From Mycobacteriales bacterium (GTDB taxonomy: Bacteria > Actinomycetota > Actinomycetes > Mycobacteriales > CADCTP01), in NCBI GenBank assembly GCA_035995165.1, contig DASYKU010000146.1, positions 1-36,116 on the forward strand: 36,116 nt of DNA. The letters run 5' to 3'. Shown one piece after another: positions 9,567-31,567 of this stretch. How positions within the stretch are numbered: position 1 is the first letter of the stretch; each line of letters starts with the position of its first letter. The position numbers were made by a program, and so were the translations under genes. Below the pieces are notes generated by a model. The model did no database searches and was not told the DNA's origin. It was given only the letters and a program-made list of their open reading frames with translations.

Positions 9567-10319
9567 ATGAAGCCTTCGACCGTTCATGGCATCGACCGCC
9601 CGAAGGCCGCGAGCGTCGCGGCGGCCGACTACATCCGTCGGGAGATCTTCACCGGCAACTATGCGCCTGATACCAAGGTCCCGCAGGACCAGGTCGCGCT
9701 CGCCCTGGACATCAGCCGCATCCCGGTCCGGGAGGCCTTGGTCACCCTGCACGGTGAAGGCTATGTCCGGCTGGAGGCGAACCGCGGCGCAGTGGTCGTC
9801 CCGTTCTACGCGGAGGACCTCCGCAGCTTCTTCAAGATGCGCGGCTTCTCTCTCGCCCTCGCCGCGCAGCAATGTGCGCGAATGGGCGACGCCAGCCTGC
9901 TCGGCAGTCTGCGGATTCTGGTGGCTCTTGCGGACACGAGCGACTCGGCGGACGAATTCAGCATTCACAGCGAGGCCTTCGGCAAGCAACTCGCCGACTT
10001 CGGAGGCTCACCTCGGTTGCGCGCCGCCATCGCCCGCTTCCGCAACATCGTCCCCGGCAACTTCTTTGCCGAGGTGGCCGGGACGCGCGAGATCGAGTCG
10101 GTGTGCATGCACCGGGTCACCGACGCGATCGAACAGCAGGACGTGGACGCGATCATTCCCAGCTATGCCGAGCGCGCCCATGAACACGCCGAGCGCCTCA
10201 TCGCGCTGCTGGCCGAGCGCGGCCAGCTCTATGAGCTTGACCTGGGTCAGCCGGCCAGCACGCGCACCGGTCGGCCGTCGAGCCAGCCGACGATGTCCGC
10301 TACCACCTCCCGGAAGTAG
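9567..10319 (+). CDS. GntR family transcriptional regulator (FadR/FCD type)
   Basis: A 250-residue regulator. The winged helix-turn-helix is at about 15-78 (DQVALALDISRIPVREALVTLHGEGYVRLEANRGAVV has the classic GntR pattern). An all-helical FCD-type effector domain spans about 85-225, with candidate metal/ligand residues in HSEAF and the later CMHRVTDAI segment. FCD regulators usually respond to organic acids or acyl-CoA-type metabolites. ATG 9567 follows an AGGAT site. The last 24 codons overlap, on the opposite strand, the end of the D-2-hydroxyacid dehydrogenase gene by 73 nt; this tail lies beyond the conserved domain. It is the only complete regulator gene next to the large operon, so it is the best candidate for its control. 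Confidence 0.9.
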   Translation: MKPSTVHGIDRPKAASVAAADYIRREIFTGNYAPDTKVPQDQVALALDISRIPVREALVTLHGEGYVRLEANRGAVVVPFYAEDLRSFFKMRGFSLALAAQQCARMGDASLLGSLRILVALADTSDSADEFSIHSEAFGKQLADFGGSPRLRAAIARFRNIVPGNFFAEVAGTREIESVCMHRVTDAIEQQDVDAIIPSYAERAHEHAERLIALLAERGQLYELDLGQPASTRTGRPSSQPTMSATTSRK

Positions 10320-11203
10320 ACCGCATAGCTCTGCTCGGTGACGTAGCCGAGGTGCGGCGTCGCGATCACGTTCGGCAGGTCGCGCAGGATGTGCCCGGCC
10401 GGCAGCGGCTCGGCGTCGAACACGTCCAGCGCCGCTCCGGCGATCACGCCGTCGCGCAGCGCCGCCAGCAACGCGGCCTCGTCGACGATCGGCCCCCGCG
10501 ACGTGTTGATCAGGAACCCTCTCGGCCCCAGCGACGCCAGCTCCGCGGTGCCGACGAGACCGCGCGTCCGGTCGGACAGTGTCATGTGGACGGTCACAGC
10601 GTCGGAGCGGCGGAACAGCTCGTCCTTCTCCACCCATTCGGCCCCCGCGGCGGCCGCTCGCTGCGGAGTGAGGTGCTGGCTCCAGGCCAGCGCATGCATC
10701 CCGAAGGCGCGTGCGTATCCGGCGACCTGGGTGCCGATCTTCCCGAGCCCGAGGATGCCGATCGTGCCGCCGGCGAGCTCGCGGCCGAGGCCGAGTTGCC
10801 ACCCGCCTCGGGCGACCCCCGCGGTCTCGGCCGGCAGTTGCCGGGCCAGCGCGATCAGCAGCCCCCAGGCCAGCTCGCCGGTCCCGGCGCCGGACCCGCC
10901 GGTGCCACAGACCAGCATGTTCCGCGCCCGCGCGGCATCGAGGTCGATCGCGGCGTTGCGCATGCCGGTGGTCACCAGCAGGCGCAGTCTCGGCAGCCGG
11001 GCCAGGATCCCGGCCGGGAGCGGGGTGCGCTCCCGCATCGCGACGACGACGTCCGCCTCGGCCAGCGCCGCCACCAGCGTGTCCGGATCGGCCAGATGGT
11101 CGTGCCATACGTCGAGCTCGACCCGTCCGGACAGCGGCGACCAGTCCGCGCTGTCCCGGGCGACCTTCTGGTAGTCGTCCAGGACGACGACGCGAGGCAG
11201 CAC
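10247..11203 (-). CDS. D-isomer-specific 2-hydroxyacid dehydrogenase
   Basis: A 318-residue NAD(P)-dependent enzyme that interconverts 2-oxoacids and D-2-hydroxyacids. The Rossmann loop GLGKIG is at 152-157. The catalytic triad is visible: Arg236 (INTSRG), Glu265 (DVFDAEP) and His284 (ATPHLG). GTG 11203 is preferred because GGAGAAGGGG lies just upstream, the resulting start (LPRVVVLDDYQKV) is typical of the family, and the length is normal. ATG 11254 or 11236 would add 17 or 11 residues, and the former would overlap the preceding gene. It is the last gene of the long minus-strand operon. I infer that it handles a 2-oxo or 2-hydroxy acid made by the HpcH/HpaI aldolase or related steps. Confidence 0.88.
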   Translation of the reverse strand: MLPRVVVLDDYQKVARDSADWSPLSGRVELDVWHDHLADPDTLVAALAEADVVVAMRERTPLPAGILARLPRLRLLVTTGMRNAAIDLDAARARNMLVCGTGGSGAGTGELAWGLLIALARQLPAETAGVARGGWQLGLGRELAGGTIGILGLGKIGTQVAGYARAFGMHALAWSQHLTPQRAAAAGAEWVEKDELFRRSDAVTVHMTLSDRTRGLVGTAELASLGPRGFLINTSRGPIVDEAALLAALRDGVIAGAALDVFDAEPLPAGHILRDLPNVIATPHLGYVTEQSYAVYFREVVADIVGWLDGRPVRVLAG

Positions 11204-11246
11204 TCCGACCCCTTCTCCACGGTCCACTTCGGACATCCCGTCGGCG

Positions 11247-12194
11247 TCAGGCATCCGGGACGCCCGGCGGCGCCAGCGCCTGCCAGGTGCCGACCAGGGA
11301 CGCCCAGCCGTCTGCGGCCCCGGTCAGGACCGGAGCGAGCACCGGCAGGTCGACGCCGGCGGCCCGGAAGTCCGCGACCACGGCGTGGGCCCGAGCGGCG
11401 GTGCCTATGCCGGCGAGCCGGTCGAGCATGTCCGCCGACACCGCCGCCGGATCCTGGCCGAAGTCGGTGCCGGGCCGGAACCCGCAGTTCTCGAAGCTGC
11501 GCCGATAGGCCCGCAGCCCGCCGTAGGCGACGACCTGGCGCGCCAGCTGGGACCGGGCGGCGTCCGCCTGTTCAGTCACGCTCACCGGCACGTAGGCGGC
11601 GACGGCGAGCGCGGCCGGATCGCGACCGGCCCGGCCTGCCGCCGCCCGCGCCGTCGCGGTCAGCGTCGCCGCCCGCTCCGGCGTCACCCAGTTGAGGATC
11701 ATGCCGTCCGCGCACTCGCCGGCCACCGCGGCCAGCTCCTTGGACAGCGCCGCCAGCACGATCGGCGGTCGCGCCGCGAGGTGTACGCCGTGCAGCCGAT
11801 CGGCCGGCGGGGCCGACCGGTCCAGCATCACCCGGACGGCTCTCACGGCCGCGGCCAGCTCCGGCGCGGTGGGCGGAACCCGGACCGTACGTCCGCCGGC
11901 GGCCGTCTCCGGGTGGCCCACGCCGACCCCGAGCACGAACCGGCCACCGCAGGCCTCGGCCGCTGTGGCCGCCTGCATCCCCAGCAGGATCGGGTCGCGC
12001 AACGCCAGCGACGCCACCCCGGATGCGACGGTGATCCGCTCGGTCCGCTGTCCGATCACCGCACACAGCACGATCGCGTCCCGGCCGGCCGCCTCGGGAA
12101 CCCAGACGCTGTCGTAACCGAGTGCCTCCAGCAGCGCGGCCTGGTCCAGTACGTCCGCGAGCGGTGCCCGGGCGCTGACGACCGAGCCGAGCAT
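11247..12194 (-). CDS. LLM class flavin/F420-dependent oxidoreductase
   Basis: A 315-residue luciferase-like monooxygenase-fold protein. It has the usual start (DQAALLEALGYDSVWVPEAAGRDA), the GVASLALRDPILLGMQAATAAE segment, and FVLGVGVGHPE, where F420-dependent members bind cofactor. In actinomycetes such proteins use either FMNH2 or F420H2, and the sequence alone does not decide. ATG 12194 shares its A with the stop codon of the preceding crotonase (TGATG), so translation is coupled. As part of the operon it may reduce or oxygenate an intermediate. No substrate can be assigned. Confidence 0.87.
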   Translation of the reverse strand: MLGSVVSARAPLADVLDQAALLEALGYDSVWVPEAAGRDAIVLCAVIGQRTERITVASGVASLALRDPILLGMQAATAAEACGGRFVLGVGVGHPETAAGGRTVRVPPTAPELAAAVRAVRVMLDRSAPPADRLHGVHLAARPPIVLAALSKELAAVAGECADGMILNWVTPERAATLTATARAAAGRAGRDPAALAVAAYVPVSVTEQADAARSQLARQVVAYGGLRAYRRSFENCGFRPGTDFGQDPAAVSADMLDRLAGIGTAARAHAVVADFRAAGVDLPVLAPVLTGAADGWASLVGTWQALAPPGVPDA

Positions 12195-12922
12195 CAGCGC
12201 CGTCCCAGCGCCGCGGCCACCGCGGCCCGGCGCTCGACGGCCAGGCCGAGCGCGGCCGGCCCGTCGACACCGGCGCGCAGGGCGCGCTTGGCGGCGATCG
12301 CGAGCGGCCGGGGCAGCGCGGCCAGCTGGGCGGCCAGCGCCGCGGCGGCCTTCTCCGGCTCGGGGTCGAGGCGGTGCACCAGCCCGAGCTCGACGGCCTC
12401 GGCGCCGTCGATGACCCGGCCGGTGCAGATGAGCTCCAGCGCGACCGCGCGGCCCACCGTCCGCACCAGCGACTGGGTCCCGGCCGCGCCGGGAAGCATG
12501 CCCAGCCGCGCCTCCGGCAGACTGAACCGGGTGTCCGGGTCCGCCACCCGGATGTCCGCGAGCAGCGCCAGCTCGAACCCGGACCCGTACGCGTAGCCGC
12601 GCATCGCCACGACGATCGGCAATGGGAACTCCCACAACGCCCGCCAGACGTTGCGCCTGGCCCGGATCCAGCGCTTGCGCACGACCGTGCCGGGCGCCCG
12701 GAACTCGGCGAGGTCGGCGCCGGCGGAGAAGTTCGAACCCTCCGCGGTGACGAGCACAGCGCCCACGTCCGGATGCTCGCGGCAGAGCGCGAGCCGCTCG
12801 ATCAGGCTGTCCCGCATGGCCAGGTCGAATGCGTTGACCTTGGTCTCGCCGGCCAGTGTCAGCCGCATCACCCGGCCGGCATCGCCGTCCGCGGCTTCCA
12901 GCTCGGCCCGGATCGTCCCCAT
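12194..12922 (-). CDS. Enoyl-CoA hydratase/isomerase (crotonase) 1
   Basis: A 242-residue crotonase-fold enzyme acting on acyl-CoA thioesters. The oxyanion-hole segment NFSAGADLAEF is present, as are both glutamates of true hydratases: Glu117 (YGSGFELALLAD) and Glu137 (SLPEARLGMLPGAAGTQ). Hydration of a trans-2-enoyl-CoA is therefore chemically possible, though ring-cleaving or isomerising relatives share these residues. ATG 12922 follows the stop of crotonase 2 by 5 nt. It is slightly short compared with the usual 255-265 residues because the C-terminal helix region is compact. It forms a pair with crotonase 2. Confidence 0.9.
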   Translation of the reverse strand: MGTIRAELEAADGDAGRVMRLTLAGETKVNAFDLAMRDSLIERLALCREHPDVGAVLVTAEGSNFSAGADLAEFRAPGTVVRKRWIRARRNVWRALWEFPLPIVVAMRGYAYGSGFELALLADIRVADPDTRFSLPEARLGMLPGAAGTQSLVRTVGRAVALELICTGRVIDGAEAVELGLVHRLDPEPEKAAAALAAQLAALPRPLAIAAKRALRAGVDGPAALGLAVERRAAVAAALGRR

Positions 12923-12927
12923 TGCGC

Positions 12928-13659
12928 CTACCGGCCCCGGAACGACGGCCGCCGGCGCGCGAAGAACGCGCTGAGCCCCTCGTCCCGGTCCTCGGTCAGC
13001 TGCAGGAAGGAGTTCAGGTCGGCCTCCAGCTGCATCCCGGCAGCCATGTCCAGCTCGGCGCCGCCGAGCACCGCCTCCTTGACGAATCGCAGCGCCAGCG
13101 GGGCGGCGGAATCCAGCGTGGCGCAGACCGCCTCGACCTCGGCCGCCGGATCGGCCGCGACCCGGGTGACCAGTCCGGACCGGATCGCGGCCGCGGCGTC
13201 GAGCCGATCGCCGAGCAGCAGCATGCCGCCCGCGGCGGTGACCCCGATCAGACGCGGCAGCCGCTGCGTCCCACCCCAGCACGGCAGGGCGCCGCCGTAC
13301 ACGTCCGCCAGGGCGAAGGTGGCGTCGGGCGCGGCGATGCGGATGTCGCCGGCCAGCGCGAGCTCGAGGCCACCGGAGTGGACCGCGCCGCGCAGCCGGA
13401 ACACCACCGGCACGCCGACGGCCGCGACGGCCTCGGCCGGCTGGACGGACAGCCGGGCCGAGGCCAGTCCGGCGTCCAGACCCGTGCAGAAGTCCGGTCC
13501 ACGCGCCCCGACGACCACGACGCGGACGGTGTCGTCGTCGACCACGTCGGTCAGTGCGGCGATCAGCTCGTCCACTGTGGACCGGGTCAGCCGGCCGCCG
13601 GGCAGGTCGAGCTCGACCCGTCCGCCGGTGCGCGTGACCTCCACCTCGCGTCCTGCCAT
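12928..13659 (-). CDS. Crotonase-fold enoyl-CoA hydratase/isomerase 2 (one Glu replaced)
   Basis: A 243-residue crotonase. The oxyanion segment DFCTGLDAG and Glu99 (SGGLELALAGD) are present, but the second hydratase glutamate is replaced: the expected PE pair reads AD (FALADVYGG, Asp119). Together with the GALPCWGGTQRL segment, this points to an isomerase, lyase or hydrolase variant of the superfamily rather than a standard hydratase. ATG 13659 has GGGAGG four nt upstream. It lies 20 nt after the acyl-CoA ligase and 5 nt before crotonase 1, in the same operon. Confidence 0.88.
   Translation of the reverse strand: MAGREVEVTRTGGRVELDLPGGRLTRSTVDELIAALTDVVDDDTVRVVVVGARGPDFCTGLDAGLASARLSVQPAEAVAAVGVPVVFRLRGAVHSGGLELALAGDIRIAAPDATFALADVYGGALPCWGGTQRLPRLIGVTAAGGMLLLGDRLDAAAAIRSGLVTRVAADPAAEVEAVCATLDSAAPLALRFVKEAVLGGAELDMAAGMQLEADLNSFLQLTEDRDEGLSAFFARRRPSFRGR
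13570..13582. repeat. Recurring 11-13-bp palindrome (TCCACTGTGGA type)
   Basis: GTCCACTGTGGAC is a perfect palindrome around its central T. The 11-bp core TCCAC(T/A)GTGGA recurs at 22932-22942, 30868-30877 plus flanks, and 32203-32213. A near copy is at 15213-15223. All but the near copy lie inside coding sequence of different genes and in different reading contexts. Confidence 0.6.
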
Positions 13660-13679: not shown

Positions 13680-15197
13680 CTAGGCCGTCAGTGCCCGCCG
13701 CAACAGCTTGCCGGTCGTGGTGCGCGGCAACTCTTCCACCACGACCAGCCGCTCCGGCCGCTTGTTCCGGGTCAGCCCGGCGCAGGCGGCGACCGCGTCC
13801 CCCAGCCCGAAGTCCGTACCGGGGTCGCGCAGGACCACGAAGGCGGCGACGATCTCGCCCCAGGACTCGTCCGGCAGCCCGACGACCGCACAGTCGGCGA
13901 CCCGGGAGTCGCCGAGCACGGCGTTCTCGACCTCCAGCGGGGAGATGTTCTCCCCGCCGCGGATGATGAGGTCGGACTGGCGTCCGGTGATGAACAGGTA
14001 GCCCCGCTGGTCCAGGTGACCCAGGTCGCCGGTGACGAGCCGGGTCTCGGCCGGGGACGCCGCGGCCCGCTCCCCCGCCGTCCAGTACGTCTGGACGTTG
14101 CGGCGGGAGACGATCGCGATCAGCCCGGCCCGGTCAGGACCCAGCGGGGCGCCGTCCGGGTCGAGGATCTCGATCCGGACATCGGGGACCGGCCGGCCGG
14201 CGGATCGGACCAGCTCGGCGTCCTGGGGCGTCCGGGCGGCCATGAACCGGCGATGGTCGTCCTCGTCGAGCACGGCGACGGTCGAGGTCGACTCGCTCAG
14301 GCCGTACGCGCCGCTGAAGCCCACCTCGGGCGGGAAGGCGGCCACGACCCGGTGCAGCAGCGTCGGCGGCATCGGCGCCGCGCCGTAGGAGATCGAGCGC
14401 AGGCTGGACAGGTCGGCCCTGGCGAACGCCGCCGAGTCCAGCAGCTTCGCCAGCATCGTGGGCACCAGGAACGCGTGCGTCACCCGGTGCCTGGCCACCA
14501 GCGCCAGCCACTCGGCCGGCTCGAAGCGCGGCTCCAGCACGACCGTGCGGCCGCCGTAGAGCGACGCGAGCAGGGTGCTGATGCCGGCGACGTGGAAGAG
14601 CGGTACGGACAGCAGGGTGCGCCCGACGTCCGTGCCGTCGGCCGCGTCGGTGCGGGCCAGGACGTACTCGGTGAGCGCGCCGTGGGAGAGGGCGACGCCC
14701 TTCGCCCGCGCGGTCGTGCCGCTGGTGTAGATGAGGACCGCCGGGTCCGCCTCCTCGGTCGCCACGGTCACCTCGAGCCCCCGCGACGGCGCCGATGCCT
14801 CGATCTCGGCCAGCCGGTCCAGCGTCACCACCGGTACGCCGAGCGTCGCCGCGACGTCCGCCGCGCCCGGCGCGGCCCCGGTGTCGAGCACCAGCAGGCG
14901 GACCGCGGAATCGACGAGGAGGTGACGCAGGTCCTCGGGGCCGGCCCGGTAGTTCAGCGCCGCCAGGCAGGCACCGATCGCCGCCGACCCCATCGCCGCC
15001 GAGACGAAAGGCAGGTGGTTGGCACCGAGATAGCCGACCACGTCCCCGCGGCCGATCCCCGACGCGGTCAGGAACTCGGCCGTCGCCGCGGCCCGCGACG
15101 CCAGCTCGGCGTAGCTCAGCGACCGCCCGCCCTCGACCACGGCCGGATAGTCGCCCGCCAGCAACGACGGCAGCTCCAGCAGCGTCGCGATGTTCAT
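13680..15197 (-). CDS. Acyl-CoA synthetase / AMP-dependent acid-CoA ligase
   Basis: A 505-residue ANL-superfamily enzyme that activates a carboxylic acid with ATP and CoA. Motifs: P-loop YTSGTTARAKG (157-167), YGLSES (298-303), TGD (389-391), hinge region GGENISP (414-420) and catalytic Lys497 (RTTTGK). The P-loop carries Ala where GTTGRPKG is usual (TTARAKG), an uncommon variant that should still be tested for activity. ATG 15197 has GGAGG five nt upstream. It is preceded in the operon by two desulforedoxin-like small genes and followed by the two crotonases. It probably activates the imported acid or an acid released later in the pathway. Confidence 0.93.
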   Translation of the reverse strand: MNIATLLELPSLLAGDYPAVVEGGRSLSYAELASRAAATAEFLTASGIGRGDVVGYLGANHLPFVSAAMGSAAIGACLAALNYRAGPEDLRHLLVDSAVRLLVLDTGAAPGAADVAATLGVPVVTLDRLAEIEASAPSRGLEVTVATEEADPAVLIYTSGTTARAKGVALSHGALTEYVLARTDAADGTDVGRTLLSVPLFHVAGISTLLASLYGGRTVVLEPRFEPAEWLALVARHRVTHAFLVPTMLAKLLDSAAFARADLSSLRSISYGAAPMPPTLLHRVVAAFPPEVGFSGAYGLSESTSTVAVLDEDDHRRFMAARTPQDAELVRSAGRPVPDVRIEILDPDGAPLGPDRAGLIAIVSRRNVQTYWTAGERAAASPAETRLVTGDLGHLDQRGYLFITGRQSDLIIRGGENISPLEVENAVLGDSRVADCAVVGLPDESWGEIVAAFVVLRDPGTDFGLGDAVAACAGLTRNKRPERLVVVEELPRTTTGKLLRRALTA

Positions 15198-15222: not shown

Positions 15223-15366
15223 TCAGTCCGAGGACGGCAGCTTCTTCGCCTCGTCCAGCTCCATCGGCTGCCCGCAGCAGGTCAGCACCCCGACGTCGGT
15301 CGCGACGATCACCAGGCACTGACTCCCGCAGTTCGCACAGGTCATTCGCTTGCCCAGCTCGTACAT
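15223..15366 (-). CDS. Desulforedoxin-like small metal-binding protein 2
   Basis: A 47-residue protein. Four cysteines fit the desulforedoxin / desulfoferrodoxin N-terminal pattern: CANC (10-13), then CCGQPM with adjacent Cys30-Cys31. An additional Cys17 lies between. In known members this CxxC...CC arrangement binds one Fe(SCys)4 centre in a dimer; zinc is also possible. ATG 15366 has GGGGAG upstream at about 6 nt. It is 13 nt after a second copy of the same type (15380-15496) and 25 nt before the acyl-CoA ligase. Electron transfer or metal delivery to an operon enzyme is an inference. The small size makes it easy to miss in annotation. Confidence 0.82.
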   Translation of the reverse strand: MYELGKRMTCANCGSQCLVIVATDVGVLTCCGQPMELDEAKKLPSSD

Positions 15367-15379
15367 CGGCGCTCCCCGT

Positions 15380-15496
15380 CTACTTCGGAGCCATCGGCGT
15401 GCCGCAGCACAGCACCTGGCCGTCGCCGCCCCGGGTGACCACGACCTCCCCGTTGCACTGCGCGCACTTCACCCGCGCGCCGGTCTTGTTCGCCAT
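15380..15496 (-). CDS. Desulforedoxin-like small metal-binding protein 1
   Basis: A 38-residue protein with exactly four cysteines in the desulforedoxin pattern: CAQC (11-14) and CCGTPM (Cys30, Cys31), with a Gly-rich turn between. This is almost the length of free-standing desulforedoxin (about 36 residues). ATG 15496 has GGGAG seven nt upstream and starts 2 nt after the stop of the MmgE/PrpD gene, so coupling is tight. It differs enough from its neighbour (15223-15366) that they are old paralogues, not a fresh duplication. The ligand set and size are seen directly; the bound metal (Fe or Zn) and role are inferred. Confidence 0.82.
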   Translation of the reverse strand: MANKTGARVKCAQCNGEVVVTRGGDGQVLCCGTPMAPK

Positions 15497-15498
15497 GC

Positions 15499-16830
15499 TC
15501 AGCTCCCGTCCACTCGCCAGCCGGCCAGCACCGACCGGACGTCCGCATCATCCGTCAGCAGCGCGTCGAACAGCGCCCGCGCGCCGTCCGGCGTGCCGCC
15601 GGCGAACCCGATGTCCGCCACGAACTTCGTCTCCACCGTCCGCCACAACTCGCCCGGGCCGAAGTCGTCCCGGCGGCCGTGGCCGACACCGTCGACGACC
15701 ACCAGCGGCTCGTCCGGACCGGCCGGCAGGTCCTCGATCCGGACCGTTGCCGCCACCTTCTGCACCAGCACGTCGTCGAGGACGGGCCGGTCCAGCGTGG
15801 CCAGGCCGACGTCGCCGTGGACGAGGCCGAGCGCGACGAGGAACGGCACGCTGTACTTGGCGTCCTGCAGGGTCGCCGGGTTCGCCCGCTGCGCCGGCGG
15901 CTCGCAGAGTGGTCGCGACCGGGCGTCGACCCGGATCGTCACCGCCGCGGCCAGCGGGTCGCCCGGCAACCGCCCCCGGTCCAGCACCCCGGCCACGTAC
16001 GGGTGCGAGATCCGGCAGCAGGGCCAGCGCTTCACCTCCGCGTCCAGCAGCCGCCAGCCGGAGCCGGTCAGCAGCGCGGCGCCGTCCGCGGTCAGCGGCG
16101 ATCCGAGGTAGATCCGGAACAGCCCCGCGGCACCCTCGAACACCCGGGCCGGACCGGTGATGCCGGCCCGGGCCAGGCGGCCGGCGTCGACGCCGCCGCG
16201 GGCGGCGAAGCCGGGATAGACCGCCCGCGCCGTGCCGCCCACCCCGAACGCGGCCTCCTTGCCCCCGGCCGCCTGCATGTACGCCAGGCCCAGCGCGGAG
16301 GTCAGCTCGGCGTCGGAGAGCCCGGCGGTCAGCCCGTACGCGAGGGTCGCGCCGAAGTAGCCGAACAGCTGGGTGAGGAACCAGTTCGAGGTCGGGCTGG
16401 TCAGCGCGGCCACGTCGCCGAGCCGGCAGACCAGCTCGTTGCCCAGCGCGACGGCGTCGACGACGGGGACCGCCGGGCCCTGGGCCGCCGTCTCGGCCGC
16501 CGCGCACAACGCCGCCGGCAGGGTCGCCGCGGACAGGTGGACGTGGCCGGGGTCGTACACGTCGTCGTAGTCGAGCAGGTGGATGAGCGCGCCGTTGCCG
16601 AAGGCATGCGCGCTGTCCGGACCGAGGTAGAGCCCGGTGCCCTCGGTGCCCTCGCCGATCGCGCGGGCGACGGCCCGGGCGAGGTCGGAGGTCCGGGCGG
16701 CGGCGATCGCGATGCCGGCGGAGTCGGCGACGTGCAGCCGGGTGCGCTCGAGCACCGCGGCCGGCAGGCCCGCGGCGAGCTGCCCGCGGGCCCAGGCCAC
16801 CACGTCCGCGCTGACGCTGCCGTCAGTCAT
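15499..16830 (-). CDS. MmgE/PrpD family protein
   Basis: A 443-residue protein of the fold that includes 2-methylcitrate dehydratase (PrpD), cis-aconitate decarboxylase and iminodisuccinate epimerase. The typical N-terminal helical domain has NGALIHLLDYDDVYD (about 79-93) followed by the conserved HVHLSAATLPAAL. A KEAAFG segment and the C-terminal lid region (KRWPCCRISHPYVAG) also match. ATG 16830 overlaps the ABC ATPase stop by 8 nt. In this operon it may dehydrate, decarboxylate or epimerise a polar carboxylate intermediate. PrpD proper is not claimed because no methylcitrate synthase or methylisocitrate lyase gene is present. Confidence 0.9.
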   Translation of the reverse strand: MTDGSVSADVVAWARGQLAAGLPAAVLERTRLHVADSAGIAIAAARTSDLARAVARAIGEGTEGTGLYLGPDSAHAFGNGALIHLLDYDDVYDPGHVHLSAATLPAALCAAAETAAQGPAVPVVDAVALGNELVCRLGDVAALTSPTSNWFLTQLFGYFGATLAYGLTAGLSDAELTSALGLAYMQAAGGKEAAFGVGGTARAVYPGFAARGGVDAGRLARAGITGPARVFEGAAGLFRIYLGSPLTADGAALLTGSGWRLLDAEVKRWPCCRISHPYVAGVLDRGRLPGDPLAAAVTIRVDARSRPLCEPPAQRANPATLQDAKYSVPFLVALGLVHGDVGLATLDRPVLDDVLVQKVAATVRIEDLPAGPDEPLVVVDGVGHGRRDDFGPGELWRTVETKFVADIGFAGGTPDGARALFDALLTDDADVRSVLAGWRVDGS

Positions 16831-17914
16831 CGGTGAGCACGCTGGCGTCGTCGCGGCCGAAGCTGATGACGCCGGCCTCCCCGGCCGGGACGTGGTCGTG
16901 GTCGGCCAGCGGCGAGGTGATGCGGATGCTCTGCTCGCCCACCCGGTACTGGGCCTCGCGGGTGTCACCGACCGTCGCCGACACCACGCAGCGGGCCTCG
17001 AGCACCTCCGTCCCGGACTCCGGTGACGGCGTGGTGCCGGCGTGGTGGCGGATGCGGGCGTTGCGGACGAGCAGTGCGCAGGCCTCGCCCACGGTCCAGC
17101 TCCGGGGACTGGCGGCGGTCACCCGCTGCCCCTCCACCTCGACGGTCGTGTACGACCCGTCCGTGCCGACCACCCGCGCAGCGAGCAGGACGCCGGCGTC
17201 GAGGAACCGGGCCACGTGCGCGGTCCCGGGAGAGCGCCACATCTCCCCCGGGGACGCCTGATGGACGATCTCGCCGTCCCGCATGAGGCAGACGCTGTCG
17301 GACATGCTCAGCGCCTCCTGCCGGTCGTGGGTGACGTAGAGGGCGGTGATGCCGGCCTCCTGCTGGATGCGCCGGATGTCCAGCCGCAGCTGGCTGCGCA
17401 GCCGGGCGTCGAGGTTGCTCAGCGGCTCGTCCAGCAGCAGCACCTTGGGCTCGTAGACCAGCGCCCGGGCCAGCGCCACCCGCTGCTGCTGGCCGCCGCT
17501 GAGCTGGAACGGGTACGACGCGCCGAGCGCGCCGAGGCCGACCATCTCCAGACTCTCCCGGACCCGGCGGCGGACGTCGCCTGTGGACAGTGACCGCACC
17601 CGCAGCGGGAAGCCGACGTTCTTCTCGACGGTCATGTTCGGCCACAGCGCGTAGGACTGGAAGACCATGCCGACGTCGCGCATCCGGGTCGGCAGGTCGG
17701 TGGTGTCGTTGAAGATCACCCGCTCGCCGAGCTTGATGACGCCGGCGTCGGGCCGCTCCAACCCGGCCACCGACCGCAGCGTGGTGGTCTTGCCACATCC
17801 GCTGGGCCCCAGCAGCGTGACGAACTTGCCCTCCTCGACGTCGAAGCTGACCCCGGAGAGGACCGGCGTGCGCGCGAACCGCTTGTGCAACCCGATCACG
17901 TGGATGGCCGACAT
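16823..17914 (-). CDS. ABC transporter ATP-binding protein (Fe3+/spermidine/organic acid type)
   Basis: A 363-residue nucleotide-binding subunit. Walker A is GPSGCGKTT (36-44), the Q-loop Gln86, signature LSGGQ (138-142), Walker B LLLDEP (159-164) and H-loop His196. After about residue 235 comes a TOBE-like beta domain, as in PotA/FbpC-type proteins. It starts 3 nt after the permease stop and overlaps the MmgE/PrpD start by 8 nt. It energises the importer formed with the fused permease (17918-19735) and the lipoprotein receptor (19767-20879). The family is usually labelled iron or polyamine import, but its location inside a catabolic operon argues for the pathway substrate. Confidence 0.93.
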   Translation of the reverse strand: MSAIHVIGLHKRFARTPVLSGVSFDVEEGKFVTLLGPSGCGKTTTLRSVAGLERPDAGVIKLGERVIFNDTTDLPTRMRDVGMVFQSYALWPNMTVEKNVGFPLRVRSLSTGDVRRRVRESLEMVGLGALGASYPFQLSGGQQQRVALARALVYEPKVLLLDEPLSNLDARLRSQLRLDIRRIQQEAGITALYVTHDRQEALSMSDSVCLMRDGEIVHQASPGEMWRSPGTAHVARFLDAGVLLAARVVGTDGSYTTVEVEGQRVTAASPRSWTVGEACALLVRNARIRHHAGTTPSPESGTEVLEARCVVSATVGDTREAQYRVGEQSIRITSPLADHDHVPAGEAGVISFGRDDASVLTDD

Positions 17915-17917
17915 TTC

Positions 17918-19735
17918 TCAGGACACCCCCGTTCCGACCAGGTTCTGACCGGCCGCCGGCGTCGCCGTCGCGGCCGACTCGAGGTCCAGGATCACCGTCT
18001 TCTCCTTCCCACGGGGCCGCCCGTAGGCGGCGCCCAGCAGCAACAGGCCGGCGACCACCGCGATCAGGACGCACTGCCCCAGCGCGAGAACGGCCGCGTA
18101 GCCGTACTGTCCGTCCTGCATGTAGTCGTAGATCAACACCGAGAGCGTCTTGGTGTTGCCGTTGGTGAGGATCGCCGCGGCGGAGACCTCGTTGATCGCG
18201 AACACGAACGCCAGCAGCGCACCCATGAACAGGCTGGTGCGGATCTGCGGCACCGCCACCGACAGGATCCGCCGCCAGAGCGGGGCACCGGCGACCTCGG
18301 CGGCGTTCTCCAGCTCGACCGAGGACTGCAGCACCGCCGTCTGCACGACCCGGGTCACGATCGGCAGCCAGCCCGCGAAGATCGCGATGCCGACGATGTA
18401 GATGCTGTTGTAGACCGGGCTGCCGATGTAGGTCCAGATGAGGCCCAGGGCGAGGATCGTGCCGGGCAGCCCGAGTGGCAGGTTGGCCAGGAACTGCACG
18501 ATCCGCGACAGCGGCCCGACGTGCCGGACGGTCGTGTACGCGACCAGACCGCCGATGACGACCGCCCCGACCATCGACGCTCCCGCGATCTTCAGCGAGT
18601 TCGTCACGCACTGCGCGACCGACGGATCCTGGTAGACCGCGCGGAAGTTCGCCGCGGTGAACATGTGCCAGCTCAGGTCGTTGGAGAAGAACGGCACCGC
18701 CGAGCGCAGGATCACACCCAGCAGCGGCAGGACCACCGAGATCGTCACGTACACCCAGACGATCGCGGTGCTCGTCGCCCGGGCCCGCCGGCCGGCGTTG
18801 CGGGGCCCGTGCCGGACCGCCTTGCCGGTCTGGGTGGCGAAGCGGCCCTGCGTCCGGGTCGCTCGCATGTGGACGATCAGACCGAGGGTCGCCACCACCA
18901 GCAGCAGCGTCCCGGCCGCGGCGGCCCCGTTGTAATCCAACGGGAAGCTGGTGGTGAGCGTGAAGATCACGTTCGACAGTACGTAGTGCCGATCGGGGGC
19001 GGTGAGGATCGACGGCACCGAGTAGATCTCCGAGGCCAGGACGAAGACCAGCACGAACGCCGACACCAGCGCCGGCGCCAGCAGCGGCAGGGTGACCCGC
19101 AGCGCCGTCCGCAGTGGCCGGGCCCCGGCGACCTCGGCCGCCTCGTACACGTCCGCGCCGATCCGGTCGATCGCGTCGGAGGCGAACACGAACGCGTACG
19201 GCGTGAAGTACATGCACAGCACGAACACCGCGCCCGGCACGCTGACGATGTTGATCGTGGGCAGGTGGCCCCGGTCGAGCAGGTCGTTCAGCAGCCCCGC
19301 GTTCGGCGCGAGCAGACTGACCCAGCCCACCGTGGACACCAGCGGGGAGATGAACAGCGGGGCCATCAGCGCACCCCGCAGCAGCCCGCTCGCGTGCGGC
19401 ACCGCCCGGTTGAACAGGACGGCGAGCGCGAACCCGATCGCGGTGGTGAGCACCGCGCAGGACAGCGCGACGATCGCCGTGGTCCGCATCGGGATCAGGA
19501 ACTGCCGGGTGGTGTACACCCGGCGGAGGTTGTCCAGGGTCCAGGCGTTCACCGGTGCTGTCGGCAGGTTCGTCGACAGCGCCGCCTCGATCAGATAGAC
19601 CGCCGGCACGACGATCCCCACCGCGAGCACGACGAGCAGGGCCAGCCGGGGCAGACGCTCGGTCACCCATCGAACCCGACGACTGCTGACCAACCAGGTA
19701 CGAGCGTCAGCCACGGCTGCCCTGCTTCCTCTCAT
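17918..19735 (-). CDS. ABC transporter permease, two fused membrane domains
   Basis: A 605-residue inner-membrane protein with about 12 hydrophobic segments in two homologous halves. Each half carries a BPD-type coupling helix: EAAEVAGARPLRTALRVTLP in the first and ENAAEVAGAPLWRRILSVAVP in the second. The fused arrangement is typical of the FbpB/iron-type and related organic-acid importers. A charged linker (about 312-345) joins the halves. The start ATG 19735 follows the receptor gene by 31 nt, and the stop is 3 nt before the ATPase. It makes a complete three-gene importer without needing a second permease gene. Confidence 0.93.
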   Translation of the reverse strand: MRGSRAAVADARTWLVSSRRVRWVTERLPRLALLVVLAVGIVVPAVYLIEAALSTNLPTAPVNAWTLDNLRRVYTTRQFLIPMRTTAIVALSCAVLTTAIGFALAVLFNRAVPHASGLLRGALMAPLFISPLVSTVGWVSLLAPNAGLLNDLLDRGHLPTINIVSVPGAVFVLCMYFTPYAFVFASDAIDRIGADVYEAAEVAGARPLRTALRVTLPLLAPALVSAFVLVFVLASEIYSVPSILTAPDRHYVLSNVIFTLTTSFPLDYNGAAAAGTLLLVVATLGLIVHMRATRTQGRFATQTGKAVRHGPRNAGRRARATSTAIVWVYVTISVVLPLLGVILRSAVPFFSNDLSWHMFTAANFRAVYQDPSVAQCVTNSLKIAGASMVGAVVIGGLVAYTTVRHVGPLSRIVQFLANLPLGLPGTILALGLIWTYIGSPVYNSIYIVGIAIFAGWLPIVTRVVQTAVLQSSVELENAAEVAGAPLWRRILSVAVPQIRTSLFMGALLAFVFAINEVSAAAILTNGNTKTLSVLIYDYMQDGQYGYAAVLALGQCVLIAVVAGLLLLGAAYGRPRGKEKTVILDLESAATATPAAGQNLVGTGVS

Positions 19736-19766
19736 CGCGATGTCGTCCTCGCCGCCCGGGGCGCCG

Positions 19767-20879
19767 TTACGCCGAGCCCATGGTCACGGAGAACTGCTTC
19801 TGCAAGGCCGGCAGGTTCGTCGACCAGTCCTGCGTGGTCGGGATGTAGACGGTGCCGATCGGCGCGAACCAGGGCTCGCCGGTCGGCAGCTTCCGGCTGT
19901 CGGTCACGCCGGTCATCGCGCACTTGGAGTTGATCGCGGCCGACTGCCGCAGCTCGCAGGTGCTCTTGCTGGTCATGAACGCGTACAGCAGCCGGGCCGC
20001 GTTGGGGTGCGGCGCGTTGGTGAGCACGCCGTAGAAGGCGTCCGGGAACTGCGGGGCCGGGTCCGGGTAGACGAAGCCGACCGGGGCGCCCGAGGCGACC
20101 AGCGTGATCATCGCGTCGTCGAACTCGCCGAAGACGACCGCCTGCTGGCCCGAGACGATCGCGTCCCGGCCGCCGGCCGTGCCGTCGTAGAGCTTCGGCT
20201 CCTGCGCGTGCAGCTTGTCCAGGAAGTCCTTCGAGATCTTACTGCTGCCGTAGAGGGCGGGGATCCCGCCGGCCGAGGTCGTCGGCGTCACCACGGCCAG
20301 CTTGCCCTTCCACTTCGGGTCGAAGATGCCGTTCCAGTCCCGCAGCGCCGTGGCCTCGGCCGTAGTGACCAGCTTGGTGTTGAAGGCGACCACGATGGTC
20401 TCCGGCTGCGGCGCGTAGACGCCGGGAGCGATGACGAAGTCCTTCGGGTACAGGTCGGCATCGACCGGCTTGATGTTCACGAACGCGCCGGCCTGGGACA
20501 GCTGGTCGGTCGTCGTGATGTCCGACCCCTCGAACAGGTCGGTGCTCTTCACGCCGGCCTGGAAGTCCTGCAGCACCTTGGCGCCGCCCGGGGCGCCCGC
20601 GGTGCGGGTCAGGACCACCTTGACCTTCGGGTACTGCGCGTTGAACGCCTTGATCAGAGCCTGCTCGCTGGCCAGCGGTGCGGCGTAGGTCAGGTTGACC
20701 GAGCCTTCCTTCTCGGCCGCGCTCACCAGGTCCGGTGTGACCTGCAGGACGGCACCGTCGCCCGACGAGGCGGCCGGGCTGGGGTTGCTGTTGCCGGAGG
20801 TTCGGCTGCACGAGGCGAGCGAGACGCTCACCGCTGCCGCCACGACAAGGACGAATGTTGCTCTGGCGCGGGGGATCAC
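19767..20879 (-). CDS. ABC transporter substrate-binding lipoprotein (family 1)
   Basis: A 370-residue extracellular receptor. It has a signal peptide with basic start, hydrophobic core and lipobox LASC (21-24), so Cys24 would be lipid-anchored. The mature part has the family-1 binding fold (GSVNLTYAAPLASEQALIKAFNAQYPKVKV; FDPKWKGKLAVVTP) seen in iron/thiamine/phosphonate-type receptors. No pair of tyrosines typical of ferric-ion receptors stands out, so an organic ligand is likely; this is an inference. The start is GTG 20879 with GGAGG about 5 nt upstream. It follows the UPF0173 hydrolase gene by 60 nt in the same operon. Confidence 0.92.
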   Translation of the reverse strand: MIPRARATFVLVVAAAVSVSLASCSRTSGNSNPSPAASSGDGAVLQVTPDLVSAAEKEGSVNLTYAAPLASEQALIKAFNAQYPKVKVVLTRTAGAPGGAKVLQDFQAGVKSTDLFEGSDITTTDQLSQAGAFVNIKPVDADLYPKDFVIAPGVYAPQPETIVVAFNTKLVTTAEATALRDWNGIFDPKWKGKLAVVTPTTSAGGIPALYGSSKISKDFLDKLHAQEPKLYDGTAGGRDAIVSGQQAVVFGEFDDAMITLVASGAPVGFVYPDPAPQFPDAFYGVLTNAPHPNAARLLYAFMTSKSTCELRQSAAINSKCAMTGVTDSRKLPTGEPWFAPIGTVYIPTTQDWSTNLPALQKQFSVTMGSA

Positions 20880-20939
20880 TACGGCCTCCTACACGAATTC
20901 CGCGGTACGCGGACGGCGCCGGACAGGACCGGTCGCCGA

Positions 20940-21605
20940 TCAGATTTCAAGGGTTTGTTCGCGGGCCAGGACGGTGCCCTTGCGGCCGTCCTCGGCCAGC
21001 AGCGTGACGAACCGCTCCGGGTCCTCCTGGCGCCAGTGCATCGGCACGACGAGCGCGGCATCGAGCAGCCGGGCCGCGATCACCGCGTCCTCCGGCTCCA
21101 TGACCATCTTCCCGTCGATCGGCAGCATGGCCACGTCGATGGGGGCGAACAGGGCCATGTCGCCGAACAGAGCGGTGTCACCGGCGTGGTAGAAGCGTTT
21201 TCCGTGCACGTCGACGACGAACCCGCACGGAGCACCGAGCTCGACCCGCCAGGTCTCCCCCACCGCGAGCGGTGAGTCGTGGATCGCCTGGACGCACTTG
21301 ATGCTGCCCCAGTCGAACTTGAGCCGGCCGCCGAGGTGCAGCCGCGTCACGGTCGCGCCCTCGCCGAGGTAGTGCCGCCCGGCGGACGGGGTCGTGATGA
21401 TGTCCGCCCCGAACCGCTTGGACAGCGCGATCGCGTCGCCGACGTGATCGGTGTGGTTGTGGGTCACCAGGATGTGGGTCGGGTTCAGCCCGTCGGGAAT
21501 CGTGCCGATCTCGGGGTTGCCGGTCAGCCACGGGTCGATGAGCAGCGACGTGTCGTCGAAGTTGATGGAGAAGCAGGCGTGCCCGTGGAACTTCAGGCTG
21601 GTCAT
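20940..21605 (-). CDS. UPF0173-type metallo-beta-lactamase-fold hydrolase
   Basis: A 221-residue MBL-fold metal-dependent hydrolase. Metal ligands: THNHTDH (His49, His51, Asp53, His54), His109 (AIHDS), Asp143 (HAGDTALF) and His190 (PMHW). Sequence and length match the UPF0173 family, whose members have no settled reaction. Thioesterase, lactonase or amidase activity is possible. ATG 21605 lies 18 nt after the EtfA stop. Its place between the ETF genes and the importer suggests hydrolysis of a CoA ester or lactone formed in the pathway. That role is inferred from context only. Confidence 0.88.
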   Translation of the reverse strand: MTSLKFHGHACFSINFDDTSLLIDPWLTGNPEIGTIPDGLNPTHILVTHNHTDHVGDAIALSKRFGADIITTPSAGRHYLGEGATVTRLHLGGRLKFDWGSIKCVQAIHDSPLAVGETWRVELGAPCGFVVDVHGKRFYHAGDTALFGDMALFAPIDVAMLPIDGKMVMEPEDAVIAARLLDAALVVPMHWRQEDPERFVTLLAEDGRKGTVLAREQTLEI

Positions 21606-21623
21606 GTCGAGGCCTCTCTCGGG

Positions 21624-22586
21624 TCAGTTCACGGCGGTGTGGTCGTGACTCGTCTCGATCCCCAAGCGGCCCTCCAGTTCCCGGCGGAGGGCGGTGAGGA
21701 AGTCGCCGACGTCGGCGACGACCGCGATGTCGGCGACGTCGTGCACGGCGGCGTACGGGTTCCGGTTGACGGCGATCACCGAGCAGCCGCCCCAGATCCC
21801 GCTCATGTGCTGGTTGGCCCCGGACAGGCCGAGCGCCAGGTAGGTGCGCGGCGCGACCTTCAGCCCGGTGTCGCCGAGCTTGCGGTCGGCCGCCGCGATC
21901 TTCCACTCGATCGCCTGGCGGGTCGCCGCGACCTGGGCACCGAGCAGGTCGGCGACCGCTTCGTACGATCCCGGGGTCAGTCCGGTGCAGCCGCGGCCGA
22001 TCCCGACCAGCAGGTCGGCCTCCGCGATCGCGGGCGGTCCGACCGGCCCTCCGGTCAGCCACCGGTCGTACGAGGACGGCTGGTGCGGCCGGGTCTCCGG
22101 CTGACCCGGCGTCGCGGACCCGGCCGGGAGCGCGGTCGCGGCCGAGCGGATCTCGGGCGCGATGGTGACCACGGCCGGCCCGGGTGGCAGCTCGTAGTCG
22201 TCGAGCACGTGGGTGGTCGCCCGGCGCCGGGTGAACCGCAGCGCACCGGGATCGCCGGCGACCGCGAGACAATCGGTCAGCAGGCCGGCGCCGAGCTCCC
22301 AGGCCAGCGCCGGCGCGACGGCTGACCCGGCGGCGTCGCCGTAGACGAACACCACGCCGGCCCCGGCCGCCCGCACCTGCGCGGCCACGGCTCGGACGTA
22401 CGCGGCCGACGGGAGCGGGTCGCCAGCCGGCCGGGAGAGCAGCATGACCCCGGCCGGTGCCGCGGTGCGACCGGGAGCGACGACCTCCAGTGCGGCGCCC
22501 CCGAGCGACGGCGCCAGTGCGGCCGCCGCGCGGACCGCTCGGTCCACATTGGACTCCGGAAAGACGATCATCGTGAAGCGCTGCAT
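21624..22586 (-). CDS. etfA: Electron transfer flavoprotein alpha subunit
   Basis: A 320-residue subunit carrying FAD. The C-terminal FAD domain is clear: LLVGIGRG (193-200), GDTGLKVAPRTYLALGLSGANQHMSG (the GLSGANQHMSG loop at 253-263 is equivalent to the usual GISGAIQHxxG), then the VIAVNRNPYAAVHDVADI segment. The N-terminal domain is divergent and the usual RP..GGR part is modified (GIGRGCTG). ATG 22586 has AGGAG 8 nt upstream, inside the end of the EtfB gene. It would accept electrons from the acyl-CoA dehydrogenases of this operon and pass them to the quinone pool through ETF dehydrogenase, not encoded here. Confidence 0.9.
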   Translation of the reverse strand: MQRFTMIVFPESNVDRAVRAAAALAPSLGGAALEVVAPGRTAAPAGVMLLSRPAGDPLPSAAYVRAVAAQVRAAGAGVVFVYGDAAGSAVAPALAWELGAGLLTDCLAVAGDPGALRFTRRRATTHVLDDYELPPGPAVVTIAPEIRSAATALPAGSATPGQPETRPHQPSSYDRWLTGGPVGPPAIAEADLLVGIGRGCTGLTPGSYEAVADLLGAQVAATRQAIEWKIAAADRKLGDTGLKVAPRTYLALGLSGANQHMSGIWGGCSVIAVNRNPYAAVHDVADIAVVADVGDFLTALRRELEGRLGIETSHDHTAVN

Positions 22587-22597
22587 CCCGTCCACTC

Positions 22598-23371
22598 CTA
22601 TCGACCCCCGTAGTGGCGCAGCAGTCGCTCGGCGACCTCGGCCGCGGCCTGCTCCAGCTCGCCGGGTCCGAACCGGATCCGGTCGGTCTCCGTGCTCTCG
22701 ACCCGGGTGCCGACGAGTACCGGCTCCGGCGGCATCGGCGGCCCTGCCGCCGGGGCCGGTGTCACGACCGCGACGTCGGTGGCGAACGCGGCCGCGGTGG
22801 CGTGGATCGACGGCACCGACGGCCGGTTGGTCAGACAGCGCGCGACGGACACCACGCCGCCCGCCTCGATCCGAGCCTGGTCGTGACGGCCACCGCCGTC
22901 CCAGTGGGCGGTGAACCCGTCGCCGGCAGCCTCCACTGTGGACACCCCCGCGACGCAGGGCACGTCGAGCCGGCAGGCGAGCAGGCCCGGCACCTGCCCG
23001 GTCTCCCACTGCGAGCCGCGCAGGCCGGTGAGGACCATCGTCGGCGGTCCCTCCGAGTGCACCAGGTCGGCGAGCAGACCCGCCACCACCGCCGGGGTCC
23101 CCGGCTCGGCATCGATCCGCAGCGCCCGGCCGCACCCCAGTGCCAGCGCGGCCCGCAAGCCCGCCTCGGCCCGAGCGTCGCCGACCGTGACGGCCGCGGC
23201 CTGATCGCCGAGCGCTCCGGCCAGCGCCACGGCCACGGCGACCGCGACCTCGTCATGGCGGCCCAGCCGTGCCACCGGCACCCGCGGCGTGCCCCGGCCC
23301 GCGGGCCGGGTGCCCCGCGCGGCCAGCGTCGCGGCCGGGATCCCGGCCGTCACGCACACCCACACCGTCAT
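22598..23371 (-). CDS. etfB: Electron transfer flavoprotein beta subunit
   Basis: A 257-residue AMP-binding ETF subunit. The family layout is visible: LGRHDEVAVAVAVALA, VTVGDARAEAGLRAALALGCGRALRI, and the recognition loop region that ends ...VARCLTNRPSVPSIHATAAA. ATG 23371 overlaps the aldolase stop by 4 nt (ATGA) and EtfA starts 11 nt after it. The gene order beta-alpha is usual. It is more divergent than housekeeping ETF, and a pathway-specific ETF inside a degradation operon suggests an electron load tied to the two acyl-CoA dehydrogenases at 27451-29877. Confidence 0.88.
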   Translation of the reverse strand: MTVWVCVTAGIPAATLAARGTRPAGRGTPRVPVARLGRHDEVAVAVAVALAGALGDQAAAVTVGDARAEAGLRAALALGCGRALRIDAEPGTPAVVAGLLADLVHSEGPPTMVLTGLRGSQWETGQVPGLLACRLDVPCVAGVSTVEAAGDGFTAHWDGGGRHDQARIEAGGVVSVARCLTNRPSVPSIHATAAAFATDVAVVTPAPAAGPPMPPEPVLVGTRVESTETDRIRFGPGELEQAAAEVAERLLRHYGGR

Positions 23372-24177
23372 CGCGTCTCCTCCTTGCCCAGGACGGCCTC
23401 GGCAGCGCCGTGCACGGCCGCCACCGCGGCCGACGCGGCGGCGCCCAGCAGCGACGCCTCGCTCCCGATCGGGAGCCAGCGCACTCCCTTGCCGAGCCAC
23501 TCCAGTGCCGCCGGGGCGCCCCCGACGAGCAGTCCGGGGATCACGCCGTGCGCGGCACAGCGCTCGATGAGCAGGTCGACGTACTTGGTCACCTCGGGTG
23601 CGCCGACGCGTCCGGGCAGCCCCACGTCGTGGCTGAGGTCGTTGCGCCCCACCACCGCCACGTCCAGCCCCGGTACGGACAGGATCTCGTCGATCCGATC
23701 GAACGCGGCCGCCGTCTCGAGCTGGACCGCGACGATGATCTCCTGGTTGGCCCAGGCCAGGTAGTCCGCATCGATCGGGGTGTAGTCGGTGTGCGGGCCG
23801 CTGGTGGAGACGCCGCGGGAGCCGGCCGGGGTGTACTTCGCCGCCGCCACCGCCCGTTCGACGTCGGCACCGCACTCGACGTCGGGGATCAGCACGCCCA
23901 GCGCGCCCAGGTCGAGCAGCCGGCCGATCGGGAAGTCCTTGGCCGGCGGCCGGACGATCGCGGTCACCCCGGCGGCCCGGGCCGCGGCGAGCTGCCGCGC
24001 GACCGTCTCGACGGAGAAGGACGAGTGCTCCATGTCGAGGTAGAGGAAGTCGAAGCCGGCGCCCGCGAGCACCCGGATCGCCTCCGGGCTGCCGATCGAG
24101 ACGACCCAGCTGCCGACGGCGTACCCGCGGCCCGCCAGCGCCTCCCGGGCCGACGTCCGGCCGGGCGTCGCGCTCAT
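23368..24177 (-). CDS. HpcH/HpaI family aldolase
   Basis: A 269-residue class II pyruvate/oxaloacetate-type aldolase. His51 (LDMEHSSF) is the catalytic His, Arg75/76 region (IVRPP) binds the oxoacid, and the metal ligands are Glu154 (VQLETAAAF) and Asp180 (GRNDLSHDVG). Family members reversibly split 4-hydroxy-2-oxoacids (or malyl-type CoA esters) into pyruvate and an aldehyde. Both ends overlap neighbours by 4 nt (MaoC hydratase upstream, EtfB downstream), so co-translation is likely. It follows the hydratase subunits, which fits hydration then carbon-carbon cleavage. The exact substrate is not visible. Confidence 0.92.
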   Translation of the reverse strand: MSATPGRTSAREALAGRGYAVGSWVVSIGSPEAIRVLAGAGFDFLYLDMEHSSFSVETVARQLAAARAAGVTAIVRPPAKDFPIGRLLDLGALGVLIPDVECGADVERAVAAAKYTPAGSRGVSTSGPHTDYTPIDADYLAWANQEIIVAVQLETAAAFDRIDEILSVPGLDVAVVGRNDLSHDVGLPGRVGAPEVTKYVDLLIERCAAHGVIPGLLVGGAPAALEWLGKGVRWLPIGSEASLLGAAASAAVAAVHGAAEAVLGKEETR

Positions 24178-24617
24178 GCCGGCACCCCCGCGGCGGCCGG
24201 GACGCGGACGCTCGCGGTCCCCGCCATGGTCCGCTCCCCCGCCGAGTTCTCGACCCAGACCTCGCAGTCGACCTCGTCCCGACCGTCCTCGCGCCGGGTC
24301 CCGGTGACCTGGCCGCGGCACACCAGCTCGTCCCCGACGAAGTCCATCGTGGACAGCCGTACGGAGATGCGGCTGACCGCTCCGGGCTCGCCACCGGCCC
24401 AGTCCACGAGCATCCGCACCAGCAGCGCCAGCTTGTACGGTCCGTGCACGACGATGTCGGGCAGGCCGGCCACCCCGGTCGCGAACGCGTGGTCGTAGTG
24501 GATCGGGGTGAAGTCCCCGGACGCCCCGGCCCAGCGCACCAGCGACTCCGGGGTCGGGGTCACGCGCAGCTCCGGCACCGCGTCGCCGGGGCGCACCTGG
24601 TCATGACTCAGCGGCAT
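24174..24617 (-). CDS. MaoC-type (R)-hydratase, catalytic subunit
   Basis: A 147-residue hot-dog protein. The hydratase-2 motif is intact: Asp35 and His40 in ASGDFTPIHYD, followed by the family-typical GLPDIVVHGPYKLALL helix. Such proteins add water to an enoyl-CoA. The companion hot-dog gene immediately upstream (24673-25134) lacks the His, so the pair probably forms one heteromeric enzyme like ChsH1-ChsH2 of steroid degradation. The ATG at 24617 has a weak ribosome-binding site (GGACGG), and the stop overlaps the HpcH/HpaI aldolase start by 4 nt. Confidence 0.9.
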   Translation of the reverse strand: MPLSHDQVRPGDAVPELRVTPTPESLVRWAGASGDFTPIHYDHAFATGVAGLPDIVVHGPYKLALLVRMLVDWAGGEPGAVSRISVRLSTMDFVGDELVCRGQVTGTRREDGRDEVDCEVWVENSAGERTMAGTASVRVPAAAGVPA

Positions 24618-24672
24618 CCGAACCGTCCCGTCCTCGCGGCCGGCGTCGGCCGGACCTGGTGGAAACCCATCG

Positions 24673-25134: not shown

Positions 25135-25162
25135 GCGGTCACCTCTTTCACAAGTCGTCGGG

Positions 25163-28653: not shown

Positions 28654-28689
28654 GTCCTCCGTCTCCGGGTCGGGCGGCTGGTCGGAGGG

Positions 28690-29877: not shown

Positions 29878-29960
29878 ACCGGTGACGACCCTCTCGTGAG
29901 CGCACGAAAAGAAACCCGTGGGAATGGGAACTGCTGGGAGGGAACTGGTGCGGTGTCGGT

Positions 29961-31543: not shown

Positions 31544-31567
31544 GGACATTGGCCTCCTTCCATTGCG

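Follow-up and report, generated by a model that had tools for sequence, protein, structure and literature searches.

Two very small genes in a set of acyl-CoA catabolic genes of a Mycobacteriales bacterium encode desulforedoxin-fold proteins, here called DxA and DxB, and we consider it fairly probable that together these constitute an accessory subunit or module dedicated to the adjoining acyl-CoA ligase. DxA/DxB-type proteins are almost confined to genomes with one branch of acyl-CoA ligases and are usually encoded beside that ligase gene. Becoming a small subunit of a neighbouring enzyme was among the roles offered by the initial annotation of this DNA, and it proved the best of them, the neighbour being the ligase.

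The genes lie in a window of 36,116 nucleotides, by which we mean the whole stretch of DNA that was analysed (Table 1). The initial annotation had described open reading frames of 38 and 47 residues between a MmgE/PrpD gene and the ligase gene with gaps of 2, 13 and 25 nt, and this layout was confirmed: 2 nt separate MmgE/PrpD from DxA (MANKTGARVKCAQCNGEVVVTRGGDGQVLCCGTPMAPK), 13 nt separate DxA from DxB (MYELGKRMTCANCGSQCLVIVATDVGVLTCCGQPMELDEAKKLPSSD), and DxB lies 25 nt from the ligase gene when this starts at its ATG (15197), or 22 nt when it starts at its TTG (15200). Purine-rich, Shine-Dalgarno-like stretches precede DxA, DxB and the ligase gene (GGGAG, GGGGAG and GGAGG), and no terminator-like or sigma-70-like site was found between these three genes in the window sequence. 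Judging by their domain families, the same-strand surroundings are acyl-CoA catabolic genes with an ABC transporter in between. Immediately upstream of MmgE/PrpD, within the acyl-CoA operon, this transporter comprises an ATPase, a fused permease and a solute-binding protein (16823-20879, minus strand); it belongs to the Fe/2-aminoethylphosphonate/polyamine type and could import the substrate. Among the open reading frames scanned on both strands of positions 25160-27450, a stretch covered in part, no Pfam family was found.

Table 1. Features of the window and the basis for their assignment.
Feature	Position	Strand	Basis
DxA, 38-aa desulforedoxin-fold protein, CxxC...CC	15380..15496	-	ORF, Pfam PF06397
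DxB, 47-aa desulforedoxin-fold protein, C-terminal PSSD tail	15223..15366	-	ORF, AF2 model
Acyl-CoA ligase, class I adenylate-forming; conserved partner gene	13680..15197	-	Pfam PF00501 + PF13193
MmgE/PrpD family gene, directly upstream of DxA	15499..16830	-	Pfam PF03972/PF19305
Two enoyl-CoA hydratases, LLM (luciferase-like) oxidoreductase, 2-hydroxyacid dehydrogenase; downstream	10247..13659	-	Pfam
Upstream same-strand set: ABC transporter, metallo-beta-lactamase fold, ETF alpha/beta, HpcH/HpaI	16823..31549	-	Pfam
Other genes of this upstream set: MaoC-type hydratases, two acyl-CoA dehydrogenases, DUF35 + thiolase	16823..31549	-	Pfam

The view that both products are desulforedoxin-type proteins is borne out by the ligand pattern, by Pfam for DxA and by structural modelling for DxB. 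The desulforedoxin ligand set, Cys-x2-Cys followed by Cys-Cys, is found in both window proteins, and Pfam Desulfoferrod_N (PF06397; cut-off 23 bits) scores DxA at 29.3 bits, the window's DxB below the cut-off at 17.0 bits and a Dehalococcoidia DxB at 27.7 bits. An AF2 model of DxB (mean pLDDT 83.7, 29-row alignment) matched the D. gigas desulforedoxin 1DXG with a probability of 1.00, a TM of 0.92 on the target and 0.7 A, and the E-value of this match is modest (0.028) because DxB is so tiny. The Pfam results and the fit of the model to 1DXG therefore indicate that the desulforedoxin label is right. Homologues with conserved cysteines, on whose existence the initial annotation had made its case depend, were found elsewhere, with all four cysteines and a site ending in CC kept in 58 of 59 DxA orthologues. 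The third and fourth ligands of DxB are more varied among 63 orthologues (CC in 36, CH in 26 and CD in one), and PSSD stands at the very C-terminus in all 63, in a census whose search pattern required P[AS]SD at loci that had been identified through other stretches of the protein. The window's own DxB is atypical in having GKRM instead of GKRY, a hairpin longer by one residue, and no extra Cys ('LCTK') of the kind that most DxB proteins carry after CxxC.

A four-sequence DxB profile scanned against 84,980 species genomes gave 65 loci, 63 of which hold a PSSD-tailed DxB, nearly always with DxA directly upstream; the remaining two are ordinary desulfoferrodoxins, and such proteins (L120, L122 and many phylum matches) were excluded from the DxA/DxB set. 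Hosts of the split pair comprise Dehalococcoidia/SAR202 Chloroflexota, Deltaproteobacteria-type and Desulfobacteraceae metagenome-assembled genomes (MAGs), Nocardia, Rhodococcus and Gordonia, and Acidimicrobiales and Frankiales MAGs. Among Nocardiaceae, dN/dS is 0.09 for DxB and 0.12 for DxA, which denotes strong purifying selection. Given tandem homologues in several phyla and such low dN/dS, DxA and DxB are not chance open reading frames, and the suggestion that they form a conserved tandem pair stands. The accompanying remark that such centres are best known from anaerobes is true of the fold; this sub-family, however, occurs in Dehalococcoidia and Deltaproteobacteria and is also spread among actinomycete genera that are generally taken to be aerobic. 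In Rhodococcus phenolicus (L071, 9797-10141 and 10306-10725) two tandem copies of the pair make up a row of four small genes. Sets of loci overlap in places (e.g., L073/G021/G787 and L037/L087), so the co-occurrence counts given below were taken from genome samples rather than from loci.

A search of the order with the DxB profile revealed a second form, a fused protein of about 100 amino acids. Its N-terminal half is matched best by the DxA profile (E 5e-9, against 2e-6 for DxB) and its C-terminal half by the DxB profile (8e-22, against 1e-9 for DxA), and by these preferences the protein is a DxA-DxB fusion in the order of the split pair. Fused proteins occur in mycobacteria, rhodococci, streptomycetes and sphingomonads, bear the annotation 'hypothetical protein' on Mycobacterium, Rhodococcus, Streptomyces, Sphingomonas and Sphingobium plasmids, and matched no Pfam or NCBIfam model. 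CxxC is present in none of 31 fused proteins, GKRY is kept in all 31, and all 31 end in PASD or PSSD. An AF2 model of the fused protein reached a pLDDT of 93.6, its least confident part being the tail (mean 76 over the last 10 residues, against 89 or more elsewhere). Since Foldseek returned no PDB relative of this model at E <=0.001 and VIA-align gave Z values of at most 2.2, the fold assignment of the fused protein rests on the DxA/DxB profile matches and not on structure. In one Dehalococcoidia locus (L100, 9732-10135), a second DxA copy with a changed third ligand (KRCG for KCCG) lies between DxA and DxB, and from its sequence this copy is possibly a snapshot of ligand loss. An apparent natural fusion with the ligase in G517 (L136/L149) was rejected, as the longer frame around the fused gene there seems to be the ligase gene upstream of it, read in a different frame.

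The constant partner among the neighbours is the ligase. In all ten annotated plasmid regions, no more than about 60 nt separate the fused gene from a class I adenylate-forming/CoA-ligase gene, which comes first in some regions and second in others. In the window, and likewise in a Frankiales MAG (6 nt), the split pair directly precedes the ligase gene; the pair follows this gene at five deltaproteobacterial loci (L104, L106, L108, L117 and L119) and in the Chloroflexota genomes G830, G857 and G848, and in G837 it is DxB itself that does so. Beyond the ligase no universal neighbour was found in Chloroflexota, where the other neighbours, judged by eye, are unrelated. The split pair of Nocardia, Rhodococcus and Gordonia adjoins SDR and CaiB/BaiF genes instead; in two genomes that were inspected for it, a related ligase lies some 10-11 kb from the pair. 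The initial annotation had also pointed to MmgE/PrpD, which we ruled out as a constant partner: the gene stands beside the small proteins in the window operon, and no such adjacency was seen in any homologous locus examined, the ten plasmid regions included. CaiB/BaiF CoA-transferase genes are often near the split pair (L060-L074, about +200 to +2600 from DxB, with a double CaiB gene in Nocardia) and are frequent at loci with a fused gene and a ligase (L158, L159, L160, L161 and L165), so that the small proteins are often flanked by acyl-CoA activating enzymes of two different kinds. At six deltaproteobacterial loci (L083 and the five named above), the pair is followed by a gene of about 320 codons that by eye resembles FMN-dependent nitronate monooxygenase/FabK.

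The neighbouring ligases are also related to one another. When the window's ligase was used as a query in six genomes with 48-112 candidates each, the best match adjoined the fused gene in five and the second-best did so in the sixth. A tree of the ligases places the linked actinobacterial and sphingomonad enzymes in a single clade (support 100/100), inside which one unlinked Acidimicrobiales ligase also falls. The window's divergent ligase (38-43% identity) is a long branch at the base of this clade (87/82), and the Chloroflexota ligases and the linked deltaproteobacterial ones make up another fully supported group of the same larger clade. In one large actinomycete genome (G035; contigs C1, C3, C6 and C16), the fused gene is present in about six copies and the clade ligase in about five, several of them adjoining, and from their sequences these appear to be paralogous ligase/partner sets within one cell.

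Co-occurrence was assessed across the phylum in an even sample of 396 genomes, with the fused/DxB profile and a mycobacterial linked ligase as queries. The small protein and a clade ligase were found in exactly the same 19 genomes (Fisher 2e-31), where the clade ligases scored 1e-136 or better in 18 and 1e-80 in the window's own genome, against 1e-78 or weaker for non-clade ligases, the cut having been drawn after this gap had been seen. Leaving out the window's genome, the small gene lies within 84 nt of the ligase gene in 16 of 18; of the two exceptions, G083 has them 24 kb from each other and G435 has them on separate contigs. Among 161 Chloroflexota genomes, nine carry a tailed DxB, and eight of these nine have the ligase, seven with a match at 1e-143 or better and the eighth (G837) with a more distant one 242 nt from DxB; in the ninth (G874) no clade ligase was seen, and the genomes of this sample without DxB gave no ligase match better than 1e-112. 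Ligase and pair are adjacent in four of the eight carriers, and several other pairs stand apart. Clade ligases are present in each of eight genomes, seven of which were picked because a sampled fused gene has no ligase beside it; several of these ligases adjoin further fused copies. Because some of the sampled genomes are MAGs, absences are soft. Over 22 linked pairs, distances among fused proteins are strongly correlated with those among their ligases (Mantel r 0.91, p 2e-4, a value uncorrected for the species tree).

A reading of the small proteins as an accessory subunit explains four observations at once: the near-perfect link to the ligase across phyla, the invariant tail, two chains that can occur as one, and a metal site that was lost while the partner was kept. 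The two chains, each with a desulforedoxin fold, would probably pair as a heterodimer resembling the homodimer of desulforedoxin. Many actinomycetes and sphingomonads have both chains fused into one protein, which would be a pseudo-dimer. The module is predicted to bind the ligase and could support its folding, its stability or solubility, or its turnover, docking via the C-terminal tail, so that the invariant P[SA]SD together with the GKRY motif would be the contact surface. The metal sites would be structural at most and dispensable, since the fused forms have lost them. Certain observations run counter to a dedicated subunit, namely the Nocardia, Rhodococcus and Gordonia pairs and several Chloroflexota pairs that lie away from the ligase, the DxB of G874, a genome in which no clade ligase was seen, and the divergence of the window's ligase, with its long branch and 87/82 support.

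An alternative is that the association exists at the level of the pathway only, with the small proteins serving another enzyme of the route (e.g., a CoA-transferase or an acyl-CoA dehydrogenase) and the ligase as a fellow traveller. Pathway-level co-inheritance would also give the observed co-occurrence, CaiB/BaiF CoA-transferases and acyl-CoA dehydrogenases are frequent neighbours, and the Nocardia pair precedes the double CaiB gene. However, across phyla it is only the ligase that adjoins on either side while the other neighbours differ, and the co-occurrence of small protein and ligase is nearly one to one, which makes this explanation unlikely. A role in electron transfer or metal donation, as envisaged by the initial annotation, fares worse. 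An Fe(SCys)4 centre that exchanges electrons with ETF/acyl-CoA dehydrogenase or LLM enzymes, or that acts as a redox sensor, would suit the desulforedoxin fold, the four cysteines of nearly all DxA orthologues and the flavoprotein oxidoreductases common in these loci. Yet the fused homologues, without a single CxxC and with cysteines at most scattered, keep both the ligase link and the tail, His is often the fourth ligand of DxB (26 of 63), and the constant partner is a non-redox enzyme; as the metal ligands are dispensable, we regard a redox function as very improbable, and metal donation as unlikely for the same loss of CxxC.

The most interesting rival is a carrier of the LysW type, in which the terminal Asp or a neighbouring Ser would be covalently loaded by the ligase and the substrate presented to later enzymes, because LysW, too, is tiny, has 'four or three' Cys that bind zinc and is loaded on the last residue of its C-terminal motif (PMC10433800). 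DxB too has three or four Cys ligands, the motif ends exactly at the C-terminus in all split and fused proteins (PSSD in 63/63 and P[AS]SD in 31/31), and the low confidence of the tail in the fused model is as expected if it were exposed. Against this, the partner is an ANL enzyme and not the ATP-grasp LysX, the motif is PSSD rather than EDWGE, and Pfam LysW (PF21344) scored the homologues at 11.6 and 10.1 bits, far from its cut-off of 27, with no match for the window proteins. Moreover, the ligase has the appearance of an ordinary CoA ligase and is surrounded by CoA-thioester enzymes, which leaves no need for a carrier, and we judge such a carrier to be quite unlikely.

If the accessory-subunit reading is correct, it has practical consequences. 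The general view is that a stand-alone acyl-CoA ligase needs no protein partner; should this clade require one, linked ligases expressed alone could seem inactive or insoluble. Degradation pathways of mycobacteria, rhodococci and sphingomonads would then miss a component that is now annotated as 'hypothetical', and the split-form proteins, at 38-47 amino acids, are easily missed. The family would, in addition, clearly exemplify how a mini-protein that binds metal can lose the metal and keep its partner. We found no paper in the open-access literature that joins a desulforedoxin with a CoA ligase, actinobacteria or acyl-CoA operons. We regard it as evenly balanced whether the module represents an undescribed class of CoA-ligase partner that began as a heterodimer with bound metal and later became a fused pseudo-dimer without it, with the P[SA]SD tail as a switch/activator within the ligase or as a covalent carrier for the adenylated substrate.

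Compared with known systems, DxA and DxB share size, CxxC...CC spacing and fold with desulforedoxin (D. gigas Dx, 1DXG, PF06397), but here there are two distinct chains from tandem genes, a link to an acyl-CoA ligase, and fused relatives without the site; DxB further differs in its conserved C-terminal PSSD tail, which is absent from Dx, and in its often histidine fourth ligand. The N-terminal domain of desulfoferrodoxin/superoxide reductase is homologous to DxA and DxB, whereas the catalytic C-terminal domain has no counterpart here, the open reading frames ending at 38 and 47 amino acids. LysW/ArgW amino-group carriers are likewise tiny, bind metal through three or four Cys and end in an invariant motif (PMC10433800), although theirs is EDWGE combined with the ATP-grasp LysX and ours PSSD combined with an ANL ligase. 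MbtH-like proteins, too, are very small and are encoded beside, and co-inherited with, an adenylate-forming enzyme. They help the adenylation domains of NRPSs to fold, stay soluble or turn over. Solved structures in which they are bound to adenylation modules have been tabulated (PMC11253843). They belong to another fold and family (the MbtH Pfam domain had no match in the window or among the split and fused proteins), and the partner here is a stand-alone CoA ligase rather than an NRPS; by analogy, nevertheless, the role of DxA and DxB may correspond to that of MbtH-like proteins.
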